DNA from: Actinomyces sp. AC-20-1
GTDB taxonomy: Bacteria > Actinomycetota > Actinomycetes > Actinomycetales > Actinomycetaceae
DNA length: 64,000 nt
Reading direction: 5' to 3'
Assembly (NCBI RefSeq): GCF_023369555.1
Contig: NZ_JACJVC010000007.1
Coordinates: 62,001 to 126,000, forward strand
The first letter of the stretch is position 1. Every line of letters begins with the position of its first letter. A program made the translations under genes and the position numbers. Below the pieces are notes generated by a model. The model had not been told where the DNA came from, ran no database searches, and saw only the letters and a program-made list of their open reading frames with translations. Below, piece after piece: positions 31,210-63,507 of this stretch.

Positions 31210-31776
31210 CTACTGACCGGCGCGCACCTCGGTGAGGCTGCCGTCGACGACGTCGTAGACGAAGCCCCGGGCCGTCGCGCCCGCGGGGACGTGCGGGTCC
31301 CGGGCCAGCGAGGCCAGGGCCCGGCGCAGGTCCTCCTCGAGGTCGGCGAAGCCACCAGGGCGCCAGGTGGGACGCTGCCCGGTGGCCTCGGTGAGCGCGG
31401 ACAGGAGGGCCTCGTCGTCCAGGCCGTGCATCCCGCAGTCCGTGTGGCGCACGAGGAGGACCTCCTCCACGCCCAGCGCGTGCTGGGCCACGGCCAGGGA
31501 GCGGCGCACGTCCTCGGTGACCAGGCCCCCGGCGTTGCGGATGACGTAGGCCTCCCCGGCGCGCAGGCCGAACAGGCTCATGACGTCGAGACGGCGGTCC
31601 ATGCAGGCGACGACAGCCACGCGCGCGCCTGCGCCCCGGGCAGGGGTGAAGGCCTCGGCATGGCGGCGCGCGGCCTCGAGCATGGAGGCGCTGGTCACCC
31701 CGCCGTCGCCCGGCGTGTGGTCGCTCGTGCCCGCGGGGCGGGCCCGACCGGTGCTGTGAGACGGCGGGGTGGGCAT
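31210..31776 (-). CDS. Beta-class carbonic anhydrase
   Basis: The 188-residue zinc enzyme interconverts CO2 and bicarbonate. Zinc ligands Cys58, His111 and Cys114 are in ACMDRRLD and VRHTDCGM; the Asp60-Arg62 dyad follows the first Cys. Short, type-II beta CAs of this kind often work as dimers. AGGAGG precedes the ATG. It lies 125 bases downstream of the flavin reductase in the same direction. Confidence 0.93.
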   Translation of the reverse strand: MPTPPSHSTGRARPAGTSDHTPGDGGVTSASMLEAARRHAEAFTPARGAGARVAVVACMDRRLDVMSLFGLRAGEAYVIRNAGGLVTEDVRRSLAVAQHALGVEEVLLVRHTDCGMHGLDDEALLSALTEATGQRPTWRPGGFADLEEDLRRALASLARDPHVPAGATARGFVYDVVDGSLTEVRAGQ

Positions 31777-31901
31777 CACGTGGTCCTCCTGGGCGGGGGC
31801 GGTGGTTGGGGCCAGCCTGCCACGTGGGCGGCCCCGCGGGCGCACGACCACGGGAGGGCGCCTGCAAGGCCGGGGCGCAGGCTGGCGCCCCGGCCCCCTG
31901 C

Positions 31902-32504
31902 TCAGCGCCTTCTTGGGGTGCGCAGGCGTACCAGGTCGGCGAAGGACTGCGTCCAGGTGGCCAGGAACCTCTGCGTGTCGGGGCGGGTGAGGTTGCCCTC
32001 CTCGTCGAGGAAGGAGCCCGTGGAGCCGAGGAAGGCCTCGGGCTGGCCCGTCATCGGCATGTCGAAGTAGCTCAGGGCCAGGCGCAGGTTCTTGTGCGCG
32101 CTGTAACCGCCCATGCGCCCGACCGAGTGGCTGACGATGCCCGCGGGCAGGTCGAGCCACACGCTCTCGCCGTTGGGCTTGGAGCCGACGTCGACGGCGT
32201 TCTTGAGGCAGGCGGGCACGGTGTGGTTGTTCTCCGGGGTGACGAACAGGACGCCGTTGGCACCCGCCAGGGCCCAGCGGAAACGCTGGTACTGCTCAGG
32301 AAGGGGCTTGTCCTCGACCGCCGGGTCGTCGTAGTCGGCGTCGTAGAGCGGCAGGCCGCCGATCTCGACGACCTCGGTCTCGAAGCCCGGGGGCAGCATG
32401 TCCGCCACCACGCGGGCGATGGCCCGTGAGCGCGAGCGGCGTCGCAGACTGCCGAGGATGACGGCGACGTGCAGGGGACGGTCGTAGGTCGGTGCGCTCG
32501 TCAT
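31902..32504 (-). CDS. NAD(P)H-dependent FMN reductase family protein
   Basis: The 200-residue flavodoxin-fold protein has the phosphate-binding start AVILGSLRRRSRSRAIAR and the family motif NGVLFVTPENNHTVPACLKNAVD, with GRMGGYSAHKNLRLALSYFDM later. It reduces FMN, quinones or other acceptors with NAD(P)H. Its start lies one base after the nrdF stop, so it is translationally coupled to nrdI-nrdF. It may therefore keep NrdI reduced (inference). Confidence 0.85.
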   Translation of the reverse strand: MTSAPTYDRPLHVAVILGSLRRRSRSRAIARVVADMLPPGFETEVVEIGGLPLYDADYDDPAVEDKPLPEQYQRFRWALAGANGVLFVTPENNHTVPACLKNAVDVGSKPNGESVWLDLPAGIVSHSVGRMGGYSAHKNLRLALSYFDMPMTGQPEAFLGSTGSFLDEEGNLTRPDTQRFLATWTQSFADLVRLRTPRRR

Positions 32505-32505
32505 G

Positions 32506-33543
32506 TCACAGCTCCCAGTCGTCGTCGTCGGTCTCCTCGGTCCGCCCGATGACGTAGGAGGAGCCGGAGCCGGAGAAGAAGTCGTGGTTCTCGTCCGCGC
32601 TGGGGGACAGGGCGGCCAGGACAGCGGGGCTGACCTGGGTCTGCGAGGAGTCGAAGGGGGCGTCGTAGCCCAGGTTCATGAGGGCCTTGTTGGCGTTGTA
32701 GCGCACGAAGGCGGCGACGTCGTCCATGAGGCCGAAGGGCTCGTAGAGCTGGCCGGAGTAGTCGAGCTCGAGCTGGTAGAGCTCATGCATGAGGCCGTGG
32801 GTGAAGTCGTGCATCTGTGCGACCCGGTGGGGCTTGGACTCGAGGCTGCGCTGGTACTTGTAGCCGGAGTAGTAGCCGTGCACCGCCTTGTCCCGCAGGA
32901 TGAGGCGGACCATGTCGGCGGTGTTGGTCAGCGTCGCGTGCACCGACAGGTACAGGGGCAGGTAGAAGCCGGCGTAGAGCAGCAGGGAGGACAGCAGGGT
33001 CGAGGAGGCCTTGCGCTTGAGGGGGTCGTCGCCCTCGTAGTGGACGAGGACCTTCTTGGCGCGCTCCTGCAGGACGTCGTTGCCGACGGCCCACCTGTAG
33101 GCGTCGTCGATCTCCTGGCTCGAGCACAGGGTGGAGAACACCGAGGAGTAGGAGCGGGCGTGGATGGCCTGCATGAAGGCGATGTTCGTGTACACGGCCT
33201 CCTCGTGCTCGGTCTGGGCGTCCTGGATCTGGCTGACCTCGCCGACGCTGGCCTGGACCGTGTCGAGGAGGGTCAGGCCGGTGAACACGCGCATGACGAG
33301 GGTCCGCCACTCGGGGTCGAGCTCGCGCCAGGAGGGTTGGTCGTTGGACAGGGGGACCTTCTCGGGCAGCCAGAAGTTGGCGGTGAGGCGGTTCCACACC
33401 TCGAGGTCCTTGGGGTCCTGCAGGAGGTTCCAGTTGACGGGGCGGATGCGGGCCGTGGGGTCGCGGTGGAAGCCGCGCGGTGTGACGGACCAGGCGGTGT
33501 AGGGCAGGTGCTCGCTGCTGCTCGGGACAGGGGCTGTCGGCAT
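32506..33543 (-). CDS. nrdF: Ribonucleotide reductase R2 protein NrdF, metal-free class Ie (Gln-Ser-Lys) type
   Basis: The 345-residue protein is a full-length class I small subunit of the NrdF branch, but the metal site is altered. Asp94, His128 and His222 are kept (LTLLDTVQ, FMQAIHARSYSS, RDKAVHGYY). The three Glu ligands are Gln125 (usual Glu in FMExVH), Ser185 (usual Glu in TLLES) and Lys219 (usual Glu in RDESVHGYY). The radical Tyr132 remains. This Gln-Ser-Lys set is known from class Ie R2 proteins, which bind no metal and carry a DOPA radical made from the Tyr with NrdI. Start ATG 33543 follows AGGAG. nrdE is not in the window. Confidence 0.92.
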   Translation of the reverse strand: MPTAPVPSSSEHLPYTAWSVTPRGFHRDPTARIRPVNWNLLQDPKDLEVWNRLTANFWLPEKVPLSNDQPSWRELDPEWRTLVMRVFTGLTLLDTVQASVGEVSQIQDAQTEHEEAVYTNIAFMQAIHARSYSSVFSTLCSSQEIDDAYRWAVGNDVLQERAKKVLVHYEGDDPLKRKASSTLLSSLLLYAGFYLPLYLSVHATLTNTADMVRLILRDKAVHGYYSGYKYQRSLESKPHRVAQMHDFTHGLMHELYQLELDYSGQLYEPFGLMDDVAAFVRYNANKALMNLGYDAPFDSSQTQVSPAVLAALSPSADENHDFFSGSGSSYVIGRTEETDDDDWEL

Positions 33544-33581
33544 GGTGGTCTCCTGGTGTGGTGTGTGCTGGTGGTGAGTGG

Positions 33582-34049
33582 TCAGGCGGCGAGGGGGCTC
33601 GTCGCCCAGAAGCGCTCGAGCCCCTGGCGGACCGTGGCGACATCGTCGTCCGTCCCCAGCAGCTCGAAGCGGTACATGTCGGGGACGTGGCACTTGCCGG
33701 CGATGATGGGGCCGGCCGCGCAGTAGGCGGTGCCGAAGTTGGTGTTGCCCGACGAGATGACGCCGCGCAGGAGACGGCGGTTGGCCGGGATGTTGAGGAA
33801 CTGCGCGACCTGGCGCGGCAGGGCCTTGGAGAGGTCGCCGCCGCCGTAGGTGGGCACGAGGATGACGTAGGGGCGGCTGACCTGGATCATCCCCTCAGTG
33901 CGGGGGCGCAGCGGGATGCGGGTGGCGGGCCGTCCCACGCGCTGGACGAAGCGGTGGGTGTTCTGTGAGGCGCTGGAGAAGTAGACGAGGTCGTGGGACT
34001 CGTCCTCGGGCAGGACGGTGACGGCCGACGGCGTGGCGGGGCTGGGCAT
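33582..34049 (-). CDS. nrdI: NrdI flavodoxin-like RNR activase
   Basis: The 155-residue protein has the NrdI signatures [36 protein letters not shown] and [15 protein letters not shown]. In class Ib systems reduced NrdI supplies the oxidant for the dimanganese centre; in class Ie it is needed to make the DOPA radical. AAGGAG lies 10 bases upstream of the ATG at 34049. nrdF follows 38 bases on. nrdH and nrdE, usual operon partners, are absent here. Confidence 0.95.
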
Positions 34050-34097
34050 GGGAGCACGACTCCTTCCGGGCGGTGCTGAGGACCTTCTGGCGCCCAG

Positions 34098-34146
34098 ACA
34101 CAACATCTGGTGGGGTGCTGACCTGTTGGGCGCAAGATCTAGTAGT
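34098..34146 (-). promoter_or_regulatory. Pair of NrdR-box-like sites upstream of nrdI
   Basis: ACACAACATCTGGTGG (34098-34113) and CGCAAGATCTAGTAGT (34131-34146) both resemble the partly palindromic 16-bp NrdR box. Their starts are 33 bases apart, about three helical turns, which is the usual spacing of NrdR pairs. The region 34130-34215 is clearly richer in A+T than its surroundings, as expected of a promoter. Confidence 0.5.
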
Positions 34147-34231
34147 AGCAGGTTTGCCGCCAATGCTCGATGAGGCGAAGAGTGAAGTACGTCTACACGA
34201 ACTTTTGAGAATGTGATCGCGTCATGAGCCA

Positions 34232-34245
34232 GCACTGATCAGTGC
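34232..34245. promoter_or_regulatory. Perfect 14-bp palindrome
   Basis: GCACTGATCAGTGC is fully self-complementary. It lies 14 bases beyond the stop of the DtxR-family gene and 183 bases before nrdI. It may be an operator or part of a terminator; without a loop it is not a good hairpin. Confidence 0.35.
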
Positions 34246-34258
34246 CGGGCCGCTGGGC

Positions 34259-34975
34259 TCAGGGAGCCCGGGACGGCTCCGGCGAGATCAGCACGCGCTC
34301 GCAGTCCTCACGGCTCAGCGTCAGCCGCCGCCCGTCCTCGGCACCACCGTCGTCATCGGTGGCGCTGACGACGCTGACGACGGCGACGTCCTCGAAGGGG
34401 GAGGAGGGCTCCACCACGACCAGGGTCCCTAGCCCGACCCCCGCCTCGCGCAGGCGGCGCAGAAGCCCGGCGTCGCGGTCGTCGACCCGGCGCACGCGCA
34501 GGCGCTCGCCCGCACCCGCGTCCGCGAGCGGAGCCAGGCCCAGGTGCTCGACCGCGCCGTCCGCCGAGGGGATCGGGTCGCCGTGAGGGTCGAGGCGGGG
34601 GAAGCCGAGCGCGGCGTCGATGCGCTCGACCATGAGCGCGGACACCGTGTGCTCGATCGCGTCGGCCTCGGCGTGCACCTCGTCCCAGGCGTAGCCCAGC
34701 GTCCTCACGAGGAAGAGCTCGAGCAGCCGGTGGCGCCTGACGAGCGCGAGCGCCTGCGCCACCCCCTGCTCGGTCAGGGTGACGGAGCCGTAGGGGGCGC
34801 GCTCGATGAGCCCGGCCGCCTGCAGCCGCCTGAGCGCGTCGGAGACCGTCGAGGGGCGCACCCCGGTGCGGGCGGCGAGGTCGCCCGGCGCAGTGGGGGA
34901 CCCGGACCACTCCTGCAGGGTCCACAGGGTCTTGAGGTACTCCTCGTTGCTCGCGCTCAGGCCGCCGCGTGCCAC
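34259..34975 (-). CDS. DtxR/MntR-family metal-dependent transcriptional regulator
   Basis: The 238-residue protein has an N-terminal winged helix (SNEEYLKTLW to YGSVTLTEQG), the dimerisation/metal domain (RRHRLLELFLVRTLGYAWDE) and a C-terminal SH3/FeoA-like domain. In the metal motif DtxR reads HxEACxxEH; here it is HAEADAIEH, so the Cys102 equivalent is Asp. The Met10 equivalent is Glu. Acidic residues at these places are typical of Mn-responsive members. It precedes nrdI in the same direction and follows purU by 9 bases. Confidence 0.88.
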   Translation of the reverse strand: MARGGLSASNEEYLKTLWTLQEWSGSPTAPGDLAARTGVRPSTVSDALRRLQAAGLIERAPYGSVTLTEQGVAQALALVRRHRLLELFLVRTLGYAWDEVHAEADAIEHTVSALMVERIDAALGFPRLDPHGDPIPSADGAVEHLGLAPLADAGAGERLRVRRVDDRDAGLLRRLREAGVGLGTLVVVEPSSPFEDVAVVSVVSATDDDGGAEDGRRLTLSREDCERVLISPEPSRAP

Positions 34976-36281: not shown

Positions 36282-36545
36282 TCAGCGCGTGCGGCGGCCG
36301 TAGCGGCGCTCGAAGCGCTCGACCCGTCCGGCCGTGTCGAGGACGCGGCCCCTGCCGGTCCAGAACGGGTGCGAGGCGCTGGAGACGTCGACGTCGACGA
36401 CGGGGTAGGTGTGCCCGTCCTCCCACTCGATGGTCTGCCCCGGCGGGACGCGCGGAGCGAGGGTCGAGCGGGTGAGGAAGGCGAAGTCGGCGGCCTTGTC
36501 GCGGAAGACGACGGGGCTGTACTCGGGGTGGATGCCGGGGCGCAT
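36282..36545 (-). CDS. rpmE2: 50S ribosomal protein L31 type B (zinc-free)
   Basis: The 87-residue protein begins [20 protein letters not shown] and carries the [29 protein letters not shown] end typical of L31B. There is no CxxC pair. Swapping this for zinc-containing L31 frees zinc from ribosomes. It lies between rpsN and rpmJ. Confidence 0.95.
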
Positions 36546-36632
36546 GGTGCTCCTACGGGTCGTGGCTGTGCTCTGTGGCGTTCAGCGGCGTTCGGTGGCG
36601 TTCGGTGGTGGGGCGGCGGTGCTGGGCGGCCG

Positions 36633-36938
36633 TCACCAGGACGACTTGGTGATGCCGGGCAGCTCGCCGCGCAGGACCATCTGGCGGAAGCGCACCCGGG
36701 AGGTGCCTGTGACGGCGAGGTAGCCGCGCGGGCGGCCGTCGACGACATCCCGGTTGCGCAGGCGGGTGGGGGAGGCGTCGCGGGGCAGGGCGTGCAGCGC
36801 GCGCATGGCGGCGGCGCGCTCCTCGGCGCTCAGGTGCGGGCTGGTGCTGGCGCGCTTGAGCTCGGCCCTGCGCTCGGCGTAGCGGGCGACGACCTCGCGG
36901 CGCTGGGCGTCGCGGGCGATCTTGGACCTCTTGGCCAT
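36633..36938 (-). CDS. rpsN: 30S ribosomal protein S14, long zinc-free form
   Basis: The 101-residue S14 has the long form ([20 protein letters not shown] ... [17 protein letters not shown]) with no cysteine. The usual actinobacterial housekeeping S14 is the short zinc-binding type. Its ATG overlaps the rpmG stop by one base (TGATG). Confidence 0.95.
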
Positions 36939-37108
36939 CAGCGGGACTCCTTGAACTCGACGTGGCGGCGCACGACGGGGTCGAACTTGCGCAGGACGAG
37001 GCGGTTGGGCGTGTTGCGCCGGTTCTTGCGGGTGACGTAGGTGTAGCCGGTGCCGGCGGTGGAGACCATCTTGATGATGGGGCGCAGGTCCTTGGTGCGG
37101 GCCGCCAT
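36938..37108 (-). CDS. rpmG: 50S ribosomal protein L33, zinc-free
   Basis: This 56-residue protein ([20 protein letters not shown] ... [16 protein letters not shown]) has no cysteine, unlike zinc-ribbon L33. Both ends overlap neighbours by one base: the L28 stop with its ATG and its stop with the S14 ATG, so L28-L33-S14 are tightly coupled. Confidence 0.95.
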
Positions 37109-37344
37109 CACAGACGCTCCCCCCGGGCGAGCATGCGGGCCACGGCGACGTCGATGCCGATCTTGTCGATGGTCCTGATCCCCTTGGCGGACACCGTCAG
37201 GCGCACGGTGCGGCCCAGGGAGGGCACCCAGTAGCGCTTGGTCTGGAGGTTGGGGTCCCAGCGGCGGCTCGTGCGCCGGTGGGAGCGGGAGACGCTCTTG
37301 CCGAAGACCGACTTGGCTCCTGTGACTTGGCAGTAGGTGGTCAT
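37108..37344 (-). CDS. rpmB: 50S ribosomal protein L28, zinc-free paralogue
   Basis: The 78-residue protein ([20 protein letters not shown] ... [16 protein letters not shown]) keeps only one Cys (Cys5), not the two CxxC pairs of zinc L28. ATG 37344 is chosen; the longer frame begins inside the Zur box. It is the first gene of the operon L28-L33-S14-L31-L36, and starts 12 bases from the operator. Confidence 0.94.
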
Positions 37345-37355
37345 GGCGGCACAAT

Positions 37356-37370
37356 AGAGAATGATTCTCA
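37356..37370. promoter_or_regulatory. Zur box between rpmB and the CobW-like gene
   Basis: On the minus strand the 15 bases read TGAGAATCATTCTCT, which matches the Zur consensus TGAAAATCATTTTCA at 12 of 15 positions and is a palindrome of GAGAAT and ATTCTC around one base. It sits in an AT-rich island (37351-37383) between divergent rpmB and cobW-like starts, so Zur with zinc would shut both units off. Confidence 0.88.
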
Positions 37371-37393
37371 TCATTATCAAGTTGGAGCCAGGT

Positions 37394-38563
37394 ATGCCCC
37401 GTCACGCCCTCGTCCTCGTCAGCACCGTCGAGCCCCTGCTGCGCGACCTCGCCGCCCTCACCCTCGGGCCCGAGGCCCCCGCCCTCATCCAGGTCGACGT
37501 CCTCGCCTGCGCCACCGCCTGCGACGACCCCGCCGACAACGGCGCCCCCGCCGTCCGCCTCCAGGGCGAGGCCGGCGTCCTCGACGTCCCCATGGAGCGC
37601 GAGTGCTGGACCTGCTCCGTGCGCGAGACCCTCCTGAGCGTCGCCGCCGAGAGGGCCGACGGCGACGGCTGGTCGGGCGGGGCCGATGACGCGGGCGGGT
37701 CCGACGACGACGGCCGGGAGGACACCGCTGCCGCCGTCCCCGAGGGCACCACCGTCATCCTCCTGCCTCCCGGCCTCGAGCTCGTCCACCTCGTGCCCGC
37801 CCTGGCGACCGCGCTCGCCGAGCACGTGCCCGGGGCCCGTCTCGCCGGCGTCGTCCACGTCATCGACGCCTCCACCGCCGCCTCCACGCTCCTCGAGCAC
37901 CACCCGCTCAGCGAGGTCCTGGCCCATCTCGCCCCCGGCGACGAGCGCTGCAGCGGGGAGGTCCACATGAACGCCCTCGGCTACGCCGACCTCGTCCTGC
38001 GCCTGGGCGAGGACCCCGTCGGCTCCGACCTCATCGAGCACCTGCGCCCCCACGACACCCTCCTCCTGCCGGGGCTCGACAGCCCGGTCCTGGCCGAGGC
38101 CCTCGCCGTCGACCACGACGCCCAGGCCGCCCTGGCCCGCGTCCACCCCGCCACCACCCGGGCCTGGGGCGGCCCCGACGACCACGGCGTGCGCACCCTC
38201 GACCTGTCCTCCGACCTGCCCTTCCACCCCGGGCGGCTGCGCGAGCTCGTCGGGGACCTCGCCGGCAGGGGACTGCTCGCCCGCGGCTGCTTCTGGGTCC
38301 CCACGCGCCCCGGACGCGTCTGCGCCTGGGAGGTCGCCGGAGGCGTCGTCTCCGTGGGCGACGCCGGCACCTGGGGTCAGGCGGGCGACGGCACCGCCCG
38401 CAGCCACCTCGTCGTCACCGGCCTCGCCGACGACGCCGAGTGCGAGGCCGTGAGCCGGGCCTTCTCCCGCATCCTCCTGCGCTCCGACGAGCTCGTCGAG
38501 GCTCTCGCCTGGCCGCGCTACCCCGACGGGCTCGAGGACTGGCTCGGCGTCGCCGAGGCCTGA
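37394..38563 (+). CDS. CobW/COG0523-like protein without recognisable P-loop (Zur-regulated)
   Basis: The 389-residue protein has the COG0523 Cys motif as [12 protein letters not shown] near residue 75, and a CobW C-terminal domain with [31 protein letters not shown] and VVSVGDAG. The expected N-terminal GTPase P-loop (GFLGAGKTT) is not there; the first strand reads [19 protein letters not shown]. Some actinobacterial Zur-regulated members, for example mycobacterial ones, also lack it. Proposed role: zinc trafficking under zinc limitation. ATG 37394 follows GGAG; an earlier ATG at 37361 lies inside the Zur box. Confidence 0.82.
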
Positions 38564-61359: not shown

Positions 61360-61388
61360 TTGAATGTTTCGGGTCACCGAAATATTCT
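61360..61388 (+). promoter_or_regulatory. Operator-overlapped promoter of the Mn/Zn transporter, probably leaderless
   Basis: TTGAAT (61360-61365) and TATTCT (61383-61388) are spaced by 17 bases. A near-perfect palindrome lies across them: GAATGTTTCGG (61362-61372) and CCGAAATATTC (61377-61387), one mismatch, 4-base centre. The ATG at 61396 begins 8 bases after the -10 with no ribosome site, so the mRNA may start at the ATG. The operator does not resemble the Zur box at 37356. The gene-free 61161-61359 shows nothing else. Confidence 0.7.
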
Positions 61389-61395
61389 CAGCCGC

Positions 61396-62604
61396 ATGAG
61401 AACAGTTATCAGGTCATCCCGGCGCGCCGCCCTCGCGCTGGCCGCCCTCACCCTCGCCGCCCCGACCCTCGCCGCCTGTGGCTCCTCCCAGACCGGCACC
61501 GACGCCAACGTCAACCCCGAGGCCACCACCATCCACGCCGTCGCCTCCACCACCCAGGTCTGCGACTACGTCACACAGCTCGCCTCCGGCGGCGACGACC
61601 TGTCCTTCTCCCGCACCGGCGCCGACGGCACCACCGCCGAGCTCGGTGCCGACCCCGCCACCGCCCCCGCGCGCCTGACCCTCACCTGCCTCCTGGCCCC
61701 CAACGCCTCCGCCCACGAGCACGAGATGACCGCCGCCCAGTCCGCGGCCCTCGCGGAGGCCGACCTCTTCCTCGTCAACGGCGTCGACCTCGAGCACTTC
61801 CTCGACGACGCGGTCTCCTCCACCGGCTTCAAGGGCACCATGGTCGTCACCTCCGGGGTCCTCACCGCCGACGACGTCGACAACCCCGGCGCGAGCAAGG
61901 AGGCCGAGGCCACGCTGCCCTACACCATCGACCGCGGCACCCAGGCCGTCGAAGTCGCCCCCTGGCCCTTCGCCCCCGAGCCGGGCGAGGAGGCCGAGTT
62001 CCGCTACGACCCCCACGTGTGGACCAACCCCCGCAACGCCGCCATCCAGGTCGCCAACATCGGCGCCGCCCTGACCGCTGTCGCCCCCGAGGCCTCAACC
62101 ACGATCAACAGCCACGTCAAGGCCTACGCCGACCTCCTCGCCTCCCTCGACCAGTGGGCCGCGCAGAGCCTGGACACCGTGCCCGCCGAGCACCGCGTCC
62201 TGTTCACCAGCCACGACGCCTTCGGCTACCTCTCCAAGGCCTACGGCATCCGCTTCGAGGGCGCGGCCATGAGCGACTTCAACGCCCAGCAGGACGCCAC
62301 CGCCCAGAAGATCCAGGAGACGGCCGACGCCATCACCGCCTCGGGCGCCGTGGCGATCTTCGCCGAGAACTCCAACAACCCCGAGTCCGTCGAGAAGGTC
62401 GCGGCCCTCGCCGGCGTGCGCGCCGTCATCGGCGACGAGGCCCTGTACGGCGACTCCCTGGGCGAGCCCGGCTCCGATGGTGAGACCTACACCGGCTCGA
62501 TCCTGCACAACGTCACCAACCTCACCACCGCCTGGGGAGGTACCGTCTCCGAGGTGCCCGCCGAGCTGTCCCAGTGGGCCCCCACCGACGTCGTCAAGCC
62601 CTGA
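61396..62604 (+). CDS. Metal (Mn/Zn) ABC transporter substrate-binding lipoprotein
   Basis: The 402-residue precursor has a lipobox LAAC (Cys28). The mature part is a cluster A-I metal-binding protein with ligands His107 (ASAHEHEM), a His in YDPHVWTNP, a His in FTSHDAFGYLS and an acidic residue near the C-terminus. Three His ligands are typical of zinc binders; manganese binders usually have Glu at the third place. No His-rich loop is present. Metal therefore stays open. Oral-streptococcal homologues were first described as adhesins. Confidence 0.9.
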   Translation: MRTVIRSSRRAALALAALTLAAPTLAACGSSQTGTDANVNPEATTIHAVASTTQVCDYVTQLASGGDDLSFSRTGADGTTAELGADPATAPARLTLTCLLAPNASAHEHEMTAAQSAALAEADLFLVNGVDLEHFLDDAVSSTGFKGTMVVTSGVLTADDVDNPGASKEAEATLPYTIDRGTQAVEVAPWPFAPEPGEEAEFRYDPHVWTNPRNAAIQVANIGAALTAVAPEASTTINSHVKAYADLLASLDQWAAQSLDTVPAEHRVLFTSHDAFGYLSKAYGIRFEGAAMSDFNAQQDATAQKIQETADAITASGAVAIFAENSNNPESVEKVAALAGVRAVIGDEALYGDSLGEPGSDGETYTGSILHNVTNLTTAWGGTVSEVPAELSQWAPTDVVKP

Positions 62605-62622: not shown

Positions 62623-63507
62623 ATGACCACCGCTGAGCAGCCGCACGCAGCCGCGAGGCACGAGCCCGGCACCACCGCCGTCGAGCTCACGGACCTCGCC
62701 CTGGCCTACGGGCGCGACCCCGTCCTCACCGGCGTCACCGGCACGCTGCGTGCGGGCCAGGCGCTGGCGCTCGTCGGCCCCAACGGCTCAGGCAAGACCA
62801 CGCTGCTGCGTGCGCTGCTCGGCACGGTCCGCGTCGTCCACGGCTCCGCCCGCGTCAACGGCCAGGCTCCCGGCCGCGCCCCGGCCGGGAGCATCGGCTA
62901 CGTCCCGCAGGTCGCCGACCTCGACCCGACCTTCCCCGTCACGGCCCTCGACGTCGTCGTCATGGGTACCATCTCCGCCCTGGGACCGCTGCGGCGTCCC
63001 GGGCGCAGGGAGCGCGAGCGCTCCCGCCGGGCCCTGGAGGCCGTCGGGCTCTCCCACGTCGCCGGACGGCGCTTCGGAGAGCTCTCCGGGGGCCAGCAGC
63101 AGCGCGTCCTGCTCGCCCGCTGCCTGGCCTCGCGCCCCCGCCTCGTCCTGCTCGACGAGCCCTTCAACGGCCTCGACCAGCCCAACCGGGACGCCCTGCT
63201 GCGCATCCTGGCCGGCCTGAAGTCCGACGGCGTCGCCGTCGTCGTCTCCACCCACGACCTCGTCCTGGCCCGCGAGGTCTGCGAGCAGGTCGCCCTCCTG
63301 GCGGGGCGCCAGGTCGCCTTCGGGCCCCGTGAGGAGGTCCTCGTCCCCGCGCTCGTCGAGCAGGCCTACGGCGCCGGCCGCGAGCACGCCGCCCGGCTCC
63401 TCGGCCTGCCCGTCACCCTGCCGACCGTGACGACGGCGGGCCCCGCCCCCTCCCGCGAGGGCGGGGCCGCCGCCCCCGCCGGCCCCCTGCCCGTGACCGC
63501 CGTATGA
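62623..63507 (+). CDS. Metal (Mn/Zn) ABC transporter ATP-binding protein
   Basis: The 294-residue ATPase has Walker A GPNGSGKTTLLRA, the family-specific YVPQVADLDPTFPVTALDVV, signature LSGGQQQRVLLARCLA and Walker B LVLLDEPFNGLD. A Pro/Ala-rich C-terminal tail is extra. The start follows GGAGAGAC; the stop overlaps the permease ATG (ATGA). Confidence 0.94.
   Translation: MTTAEQPHAAARHEPGTTAVELTDLALAYGRDPVLTGVTGTLRAGQALALVGPNGSGKTTLLRALLGTVRVVHGSARVNGQAPGRAPAGSIGYVPQVADLDPTFPVTALDVVVMGTISALGPLRRPGRRERERSRRALEAVGLSHVAGRRFGELSGGQQQRVLLARCLASRPRLVLLDEPFNGLDQPNRDALLRILAGLKSDGVAVVVSTHDLVLAREVCEQVALLAGRQVAFGPREEVLVPALVEQAYGAGREHAARLLGLPVTLPTVTTAGPAPSREGGAAAPAGPLPVTAV

Follow-up and report, generated by a model that had tools for sequence, protein, structure and literature searches.

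Class Ie R2 proteins of ribonucleotide reductase (RNR) in which glutamine, serine and lysine (QSK) take the places of the three ligand glutamates have been described in a survey that counted 275 QSK genes in 266 genomes, all of them from Actinomycetota (PMC11846895; cited here and below for its Results, Discussion and further passages). The enzyme of Bifidobacterium vaginale studied there contained only trace metal, needed NrdI for the formation of 3,4-dihydroxyphenylalanine (DOPA) and was active only with DOPA and reduced NrdI; structures 8RAG and 8RAH represent the unmodified and the DOPA form of its R2. In the accompanying survey of gene neighborhoods, which grouped RNR genes separated by 300 nt or less, 104 nrdIF stretches were found, with nrdE located elsewhere in virtually all genomes that lack it there, and some of the genomes with nrdE elsewhere have a second nrdF while others do not. 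The same paper states that there is no protocol for the constant replenishment of reduced NrdI, a possible limit to activity.

Here, we analyzed an operon of this kind in a 64,000-nucleotide stretch of the Actinomyces sp. AC-20-1 genome (contig NZ_JACJVC010000007.1, positions 62,001 to 126,000), which we call the window. Beyond the nrdI-nrdF pair to which an earlier note on this DNA had drawn attention, the locus includes a third operon gene for a putative flavin reductase (P0003), a palindrome upstream of nrdI and a neighboring gene for a MntR-type regulator (P0004; Table 1). The reductase and the palindrome often accompany the QSK type in related bacteria and hint at what powers this enzyme and when it is switched on. 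Residues, gene order, associations and motifs were read directly from the sequences. Our best overall explanation, to which we assign a probability of roughly 0.6, is that a QSK-type R2 would be served by a NrdI protein recharged by the reductase, with the operon under two separate controls.

The R2 protein and the RNR genes of the genome

The translations of nrdI and nrdF are both free of internal stops. Aligned with 83 other R2 sequences of classes Ib and Ie, NrdF has Gln125, Ser185 and Lys219 at the positions of the ligand glutamates and retains Asp94, His128, Tyr132 and His222, which bears out what the earlier note had read from the translation, including the minus-strand codons of the three replacements (CAG, TCC and AAG). 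Across positions 94/125/128/132/185/219/222, NrdF and 40 relatives read DQHYSKH, and the remaining 43 rows of this 84-row alignment read DEHYEEH, i.e., they are class Ib proteins with all three glutamates present. A class Ib dimetal site keeps six ligands, three of which, the glutamates, are replaced in NrdF.

A phmmer search against the PDB placed 8rag/8rah first for NrdF with 500 bits, followed by class Ib chains at 446 bits and 6gp2 at 436 bits, the latter with V, P and K at the three places of the ligand glutamates. For comparison across genomes we kept the best 80 of 593 stretches, the first 40 of which are all of QSK type (41 loci with the window) and 66–92% identical to NrdF, with the Gardnerella relatives of the solved QSK enzyme at 66%; the other 40, together with two short overlapping stretches of the window's own genome, make up 42 class Ib loci. 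The class Ib R2 of that genome is 63% identical to NrdF. Because residues, closest structure and published definition (PMC11846895) agree, NrdF almost certainly belongs to the QSK type of class Ie, and the assignment made in the earlier note stands. As a protein, it is one more member of an already published kind (John et al. 2025). Metal-freeness and DOPA formation have both been demonstrated on the B. vaginale protein and would by analogy extend to NrdF.

The presence of a class Ib R2 and an R1 in the same genome might suggest that NrdF is the remnant of an R2, either inactive or metal-binding. This is hardly credible for a protein with an intact frame and seven active-site residues matching those of the active B. 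vaginale enzyme, encoded in a conserved operon behind tandem NrdR-like boxes, and the QSK type is the sole RNR of more than 60 species (PMC11846895).

The window's genome (2.70 Mb in 47 contigs, completeness 100%) encodes two R2 proteins and one R1. The R1 gene, the single match to PF02867 and without internal stops, sits on contig C47, in line with the earlier observation that nrdE is not in the window, and adjoins a class Ib nrdI and a frame that we named nrdH by eye. Any class II RNR should likewise match PF02867. The second R2 has the residues DEHYEEH and is hence of class Ib; one class III NrdD and one NrdR are also encoded. Because there is only one PF02867 match in the genome, the class Ie and class Ib R2 proteins very probably have to share this single NrdE. 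The earlier suggestion that deoxynucleotide synthesis is possible in this organism with neither iron nor manganese may be true of the QSK enzyme, but this enzyme is an alternative R2 and not the sole route, since a class Ib R2 with the usual ligands and a class III NrdD are encoded as well. Of the 12 genomes sampled from the genus, only that of the window has a QSK R2; the operon is thus sporadic in the genus and may have been acquired.

A flavin reductase gene associated with QSK loci

On the minus strand, nrdI is followed by nrdF and then by the gene for a 200-residue protein, P0003, which starts one base past the nrdF stop codon. P0003 matches PF03358 (FMN_red, the flavin mononucleotide reductase family) with 100.8 bits at a cut-off of 24, and its nearest PDB chains are the chromate reductases 4hs4, 3s2y and 4h6p, with YieF (3svl) lower down. 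Its ortholog group shares the stretch PENN..PA(C)LKNAVD.GSKPN. In L161, a more distant relative, the same place reads PEYN..PGVLKNAID.ASKP, and these differences, with PENN for PEYN among them, may mark a change of substrate.

In the fetched flanks, which extend up to 8 kb where the contig allows, a P0003 homolog is present at 17 of the 41 QSK loci and at none of the 42 class Ib loci (Fisher 7e-7); one further QSK locus (L016) has a copy that is cut by the contig end. We then turned to whole genomes, counting as orthologs in the family proteins of at least 51% identity to P0003. Among 151 family genomes, 21 have a QSK R2 by residues, and the codon pattern for DK..HGYY hits the same 21 and no other. 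Orthologs are encoded in 19 of these 21 genomes compared with 10 of the 130 others (Fisher 6e-15). The gene is adjacent to the QSK genes in 12 of the 21, and when these are left out the difference persists (7/9 vs 10/130, p=4e-6). Shuffles stratified by genus attained the observed ortholog count in 0 of 20000 trials for all genomes and in 23 of 20000 for the non-adjacent cases only.

Outside the family, an order-wide draw of 273 genomes gave 24 hits to the codon pattern, two of which, in G344 and G275, came from unrelated proteins carrying the lysine signature and were dropped, leaving 22 QSK genomes. At E-values up to 1e-45, six of these 22 and none of the other 251 genomes have a P0003 ortholog. 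These six are of QSK type by residues, the other 16 calls being made by codon pattern; the ortholog is adjacent in three of them, about 6 and 9 kb away in two and on another contig in one. A transferred island is nearly identical in two of the six, and counting this once gives 5/21 vs 0/251 (p=2e-6). Most QSK genomes outside the family thus do without the ortholog, but the genomes that carry it are QSK genomes.

The linkage is not one frozen gene order. The reductase gene lies downstream of nrdF in the window and upstream of it in Actinotignum, and in a tree of the reductases the adjacency label needs 8 changes, 2 of which are forced by well-supported branches. Two Actinotignum loci (L036 and L037) have QSK nrdF and the reductase gene without nrdI, the single NrdI match of the genome being elsewhere. 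A QSK island that is about 99% identical over 4–8 kb is found in Pseudoglutamicibacter (L028), Helcobacillus (L030/L206) and the family genomes G228 and G090; near-identical copies comprise the loci L028, L030/L206, L202, L183 and L164. Identity at this level indicates recent transfer between families of Actinomycetota.

Such an island, shared by distant hosts, would also be expected if the reductase were a general quinone or oxidative-stress enzyme that hitchhikes with QSK genes on mobile elements and has no joint function with them. That view draws further on the 10 non-QSK genomes with an unlinked reductase gene, on the ChrR/YieF-type nearest solved relatives and on the surroundings of the unlinked genes, where no neighbor cluster is common to more than 4 of 17 loci (the gene itself and an antisense frame set aside). 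A superoxide dismutase motif gave no match beside these genes. However, orthologs that are not linked are enriched in QSK genomes as well, also within genera, gene order differs between clades, and the palindrome discussed below stands upstream of some unlinked reductase genes of QSK genomes. Hitchhiking alone seems unlikely to us, and the statistical link, as far as sequence comparison goes, makes the reductase a likely functional partner of the QSK system.

Several observations weigh against a close partnership. Because 10 of the 130 non-QSK family genomes have an (unlinked) ortholog and 2 of the 21 QSK genomes lack one, the reductase is neither specific to QSK genomes nor indispensable to them; outside the family, 16 of the 22 QSK genomes have no ortholog at the cut-off used, and no reductase was found in the flanks of any QSK locus fetched from Bifidobacterium, Gardnerella or Streptomyces. 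The nearest solved relatives of P0003 are named chromate reductases and not protein-flavin reductases. The B. vaginale QSK system is active without such a reductase (PMC11846895), and the known NrdI reductase of Bacillus cereus is a different protein related to thioredoxin reductase (TrxR), i.e., a TrxR-like FNR, in the parts of PMC10294844 drawn on here.

The more specific proposal that the reductase is the electron donor of NrdI is tentative, and we would put it just short of even odds. Relatives of ChrR and YieF reduce quinones, although the PDB chains nearest to P0003 are named for chromate. Quinone reduction and the Actinotignum loci, in which the reductase gene adjoins nrdF while nrdI is elsewhere, would fit an action on R2 or on the oxidant rather than on NrdI, e.g., by returning over-oxidized DOPA-quinone to DOPA or by supplying superoxide, peroxide or free reduced flavin (FMNH2). 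We regard such a role as quite improbable: the modified tyrosine is buried in the R2 helix bundle, and NrdI was enough to form DOPA in the B. vaginale R2 when this was produced in Escherichia coli (PMC11846895), although this host has flavin reductases of its own.

Downstream of the flavin reductase gene and on the same strand, a carbonic anhydrase frame (PF00484) extends over positions 31210-31770.

Candidate control elements and metal genes

The palindrome AASTWCG-N6-CGWASTT has its sole exact match in the genome upstream of nrdI. At up to 2 mismatches, the genome holds 46 places per strand compared with 87 for the reversed pattern, and because the reversed pattern thus outnumbers the true one, weight can be given within one genome to the exact match only. 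Across genomes, sites with up to 2 mismatches lie between -250 and +150 of the frame start at 34 of 55 QSK nrdI loci, while 30 versions with permuted arms reach a mean of 0.8 and a maximum of 5 at the same loci; the palindrome was partly derived from loci later counted, and the 55 include near-copies. With NrdI collapsed at 97% and the discovery clusters removed, the counts are 19/38 for QSK and 0/38 for class Ib. A short-range comparison is unfair to class Ib because the nrdHIEF promoter lies upstream of nrdH, and we therefore repeated it with 1000 bp of upstream sequence to cover nrdH promoters. The palindrome was then found at up to 2 mismatches in 34 of 54 QSK loci (window excluded) and 1 of 39 class Ib loci; with no more than 1 mismatch allowed in 1150 bp, it was found in 18/54 and 0/39, respectively.

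The palindrome also bears on the reductase genes that are not linked to QSK loci. In QSK genomes, 2 of 7 have a one-mismatch site 69–77 bp upstream, compared with 0 of 10 in non-QSK genomes (p=0.15, alone not significant) and with none among 616 background windows (p=1e-4). A Mann-Whitney comparison of these promoters gives p 0.0015 if the value for L173, whose site falls inside the reading frame, is counted as 4 mismatches, and 0.0006 otherwise. Against a common regulon speaks that the best upstream site at 4 of the 7 has 3–4 mismatches.

Directly upstream of nrdI and on the same strand, P0004 is the most obvious candidate to bind the palindrome. It matches the MntR model NF047407 with 149.5 bits, below its cut-off of 350, and the DtxR model NF053665 with 78.5 bits. 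Its nearest PDB chain is 5zr4 (173 bits), which we take to be the MntR of Mycobacterium tuberculosis, with IdeR at 79.5 and DtxR at 57 bits, and it has Glu and Asp where IdeR in the alignment has Met and Cys, which we take to be the iron positions of DtxR-type proteins. A MntR-like gene occurs in the fetched flanks of 14 of the 41 QSK loci and of none of the 42 class Ib loci, and it is directly upstream of nrdI in the window and in L004 and L008-L012.

Metal transporters point in the same direction. At QSK loci, the 600 bp upstream of genes for ZnuA/MntA-type binding proteins contain the palindrome (up to 2 mismatches) in 6 of 9 cases, and the background of the TWCG-N6-CGWA core in these loci is 0.06 per 600 bp; a core site within 300 bp upstream is present at only 1 of the 9. 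In L017, L020, L022, L203 and L204 the transporter gene is head to head with nrdI and shares the intergenic palindrome, while in L011 some 9 kb separate it from nrdI and it has a one-mismatch site of its own, with two exact sites at nrdI. L022 is from Brevibacterium linens, and this QSK locus includes the reductase gene as well. Because several of these loci are close kin, the number of independent cases is smaller. The window itself has a metal ABC transporter with a core site upstream, possibly a second member of the nrdI palindrome regulon. In Corynebacterium diphtheriae, nrdI-nrdF2, mntABCD and an oxidoreductase (DIP2262) are listed as MntR-regulated in a gene table of PMC13001254.

Other findings fit less well. 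The site at the window's transporter has only the core, with flanks unlike those at nrdI, and two cores in 64 kb are near chance; the palindrome is missing from the 600 bp upstream of 3 of the 9 transporter genes at QSK loci, and of the 17 mntR genes at such loci a single one has a core site no more than 300 bp away. These are the points in favor of a metal or redox regulator other than MntR binding the palindrome, in which case the operon would answer another signal. We consider this somewhat unlikely in view of the MntR-like genes beside QSK loci, the palindromes at most of the transporter genes and the C. diphtheriae precedent. Control of the operon by a manganese-responsive MntR protein is probable on the motifs and neighborhoods described.

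A second control may be exerted by NrdR. For scoring boxes, we assumed an NrdR consensus and a tandem spacing of 31–33 bp. Two predicted boxes upstream of nrdI have this spacing, and nrdR is present in the genome; the 32-bp distance between the boxes recurs in L004 (A. bovis) and upstream of the genome's own nrdH and nrdD. A tandem-pair score of at least 20 is reached in 29 of 59 QSK loci, with shuffles averaging 14–18 and the best of 60 at 17–22; this count is rough, as some starts, including that of the window, are over-extended, and single loci scoring 20–21 are weak because the best of 60 shuffles gets 20 in a number of loci. A scan of positions 31700-34300 for sigma-70 promoters found none.

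Further along the window, a cluster of zinc-starvation type at 36282-38563 has frames for the ribosomal proteins L31, S14 and L28 divergent from a GTPase of MRF/CobW_C type, whose NCBIfam matches fall below the curated cut-offs. What we take to be a Zur-like box (AGAGAATGATTCTCA, 37356-37370) stands beside the start of the GTPase gene. This cluster and nrdIF may together form a metal-starvation neighborhood.

Table 1. Genes and sites of the nrdI-nrdF locus and of the metal transporter in the window.
Feature	Position	Strand	Evidence or location
nrdI, flavodoxin-like activator, 155 aa	33582..34049	minus	TIGR00333 142.5 bits (cut-off 74.65); PF07972
nrdF, class Ie R2 (QSK type), 345 aa	32506..33543	minus	translation, R2 alignment, PDB matches
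P0003, NADPH-dependent FMN reductase family (ChrR/YieF-like), 200 aa	31902..32504	minus	PF03358; PDB matches; QSK association
Candidate operator AAGTTCG-TGTAGA-CGTACTT (minus-strand reading)	34185..34204		motif match; about 135 bp upstream of nrdI
NrdR-like box 1 CTACTAGATCTTGCGC	34130..34145	minus	10/16 to assumed NrdR consensus; spacing to box 2 of 32 bp
NrdR-like box 2 CCACCAGATGTTGTGT	34098..34113	minus	12/16 to assumed NrdR consensus
P0004, MntR-type DtxR-family regulator, 238 aa	34259..34975	minus	directly upstream of nrdI, same strand
Site with TWCG-N6-CGWA core, near-perfect palindrome GAATGTTTCGG-GTCA-CCGAAATATTC	61363..61386		upstream of metal ABC transporter
ZnuA/MntA-type substrate-binding protein, metal ABC transporter	61396..62604	plus	PF01297 204 bits
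Metal ABC transporter ATPase	62623-63507		ABC_tran; after binding-protein gene

Proposed mechanism and comparison with described systems

In the mechanism that we propose, the steps beyond the sequences are modeled on the B. vaginale work. Electrons would pass from NADPH through the flavin reductase, whose family is read from its sequence and whose donor role we infer, to the FMN of NrdI, which would then generate superoxide or hydroperoxide and deliver it to the metal-free site of R2. There, Tyr132 would be hydroxylated to DOPA with NrdI and O2 as in the B. vaginale enzyme, and the DOPA radical would drive the R1 protein NrdE that is encoded on another contig and would be shared with the class Ib R2. 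For each activation, the product of the third operon gene would re-reduce NrdI. The NrdR-like boxes would place the operon under control of the nucleotide pool, and the palindrome would most likely be bound by the adjacent MntR-type repressor. Expression would then be turned on by a shortage of manganese, in which no metal can be loaded into the class Ib R2. The broader generalization that a dedicated ChrR/YieF-like reductase continuously recharges NrdI or rescues DOPA in several families of Actinomycetota, as part of a manganese-starvation regulon marked by AASTWCG-N6-CGWASTT that in some genera includes a metal transporter, is one that we hold with more doubt than belief.

Compared with class Ib, NrdF is homologous along nearly its whole chain to 1kgn and 3n37, which we take to be the NrdF of Corynebacterium ammoniagenes and an E. 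coli-type NrdF, respectively, and it also has NrdI as partner, but it has Q/S/K where their ligands are E/E/E. The class Ie R2 of B. vaginale has the same Q/S/K, Asp, two His and Tyr and likewise a NrdI encoded in its operon; that operon is nrdHIEF, in contrast to nrdI-nrdF and a flavin reductase gene in the window, with nrdE on another contig. Closest in arrangement are the nrdIF-type QSK loci of Actinomycetota, in which nrdI precedes nrdF and nrdE is located separately, yet a reductase, regulator or operator such as those of the window locus is not mentioned in the parts of PMC11846895 named above. A reductase as partner of class Ie was not found either in titles and abstract openings of the mostly open literature on class Ie, NrdI reductases and MntR-controlled RNRs, nor did we find in that literature a description of this operon variant, in which a reductase and an operator are associated with the QSK genes.

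P0003 is a candidate answer to the gap in NrdI replenishment stated in PMC11846895, and a dedicated reductase, if true, would explain why purified QSK enzyme is active only with reduced NrdI supplied. FNR2 of B. cereus gives electrons to NrdI, the same job as we propose for P0003, but is a TrxR-like enzyme with flavin adenine dinucleotide (FAD), as far as PMC10294844 was drawn on, whereas P0003 is a small FMN_red (PF03358) protein. The MntR regulon of C. diphtheriae offers a likeness at the level of the gene table of PMC13001254, which lists nrdI-nrdF2 beside mntABCD. If MntR binds the operator, metal-free synthesis of DNA precursors would be a programmed response to manganese shortage in Actinomycetota, and for Streptococcus pyogenes a similar answer is suggested by a review (PMC9253540) in which the MtsR regulon takes in RNR genes.

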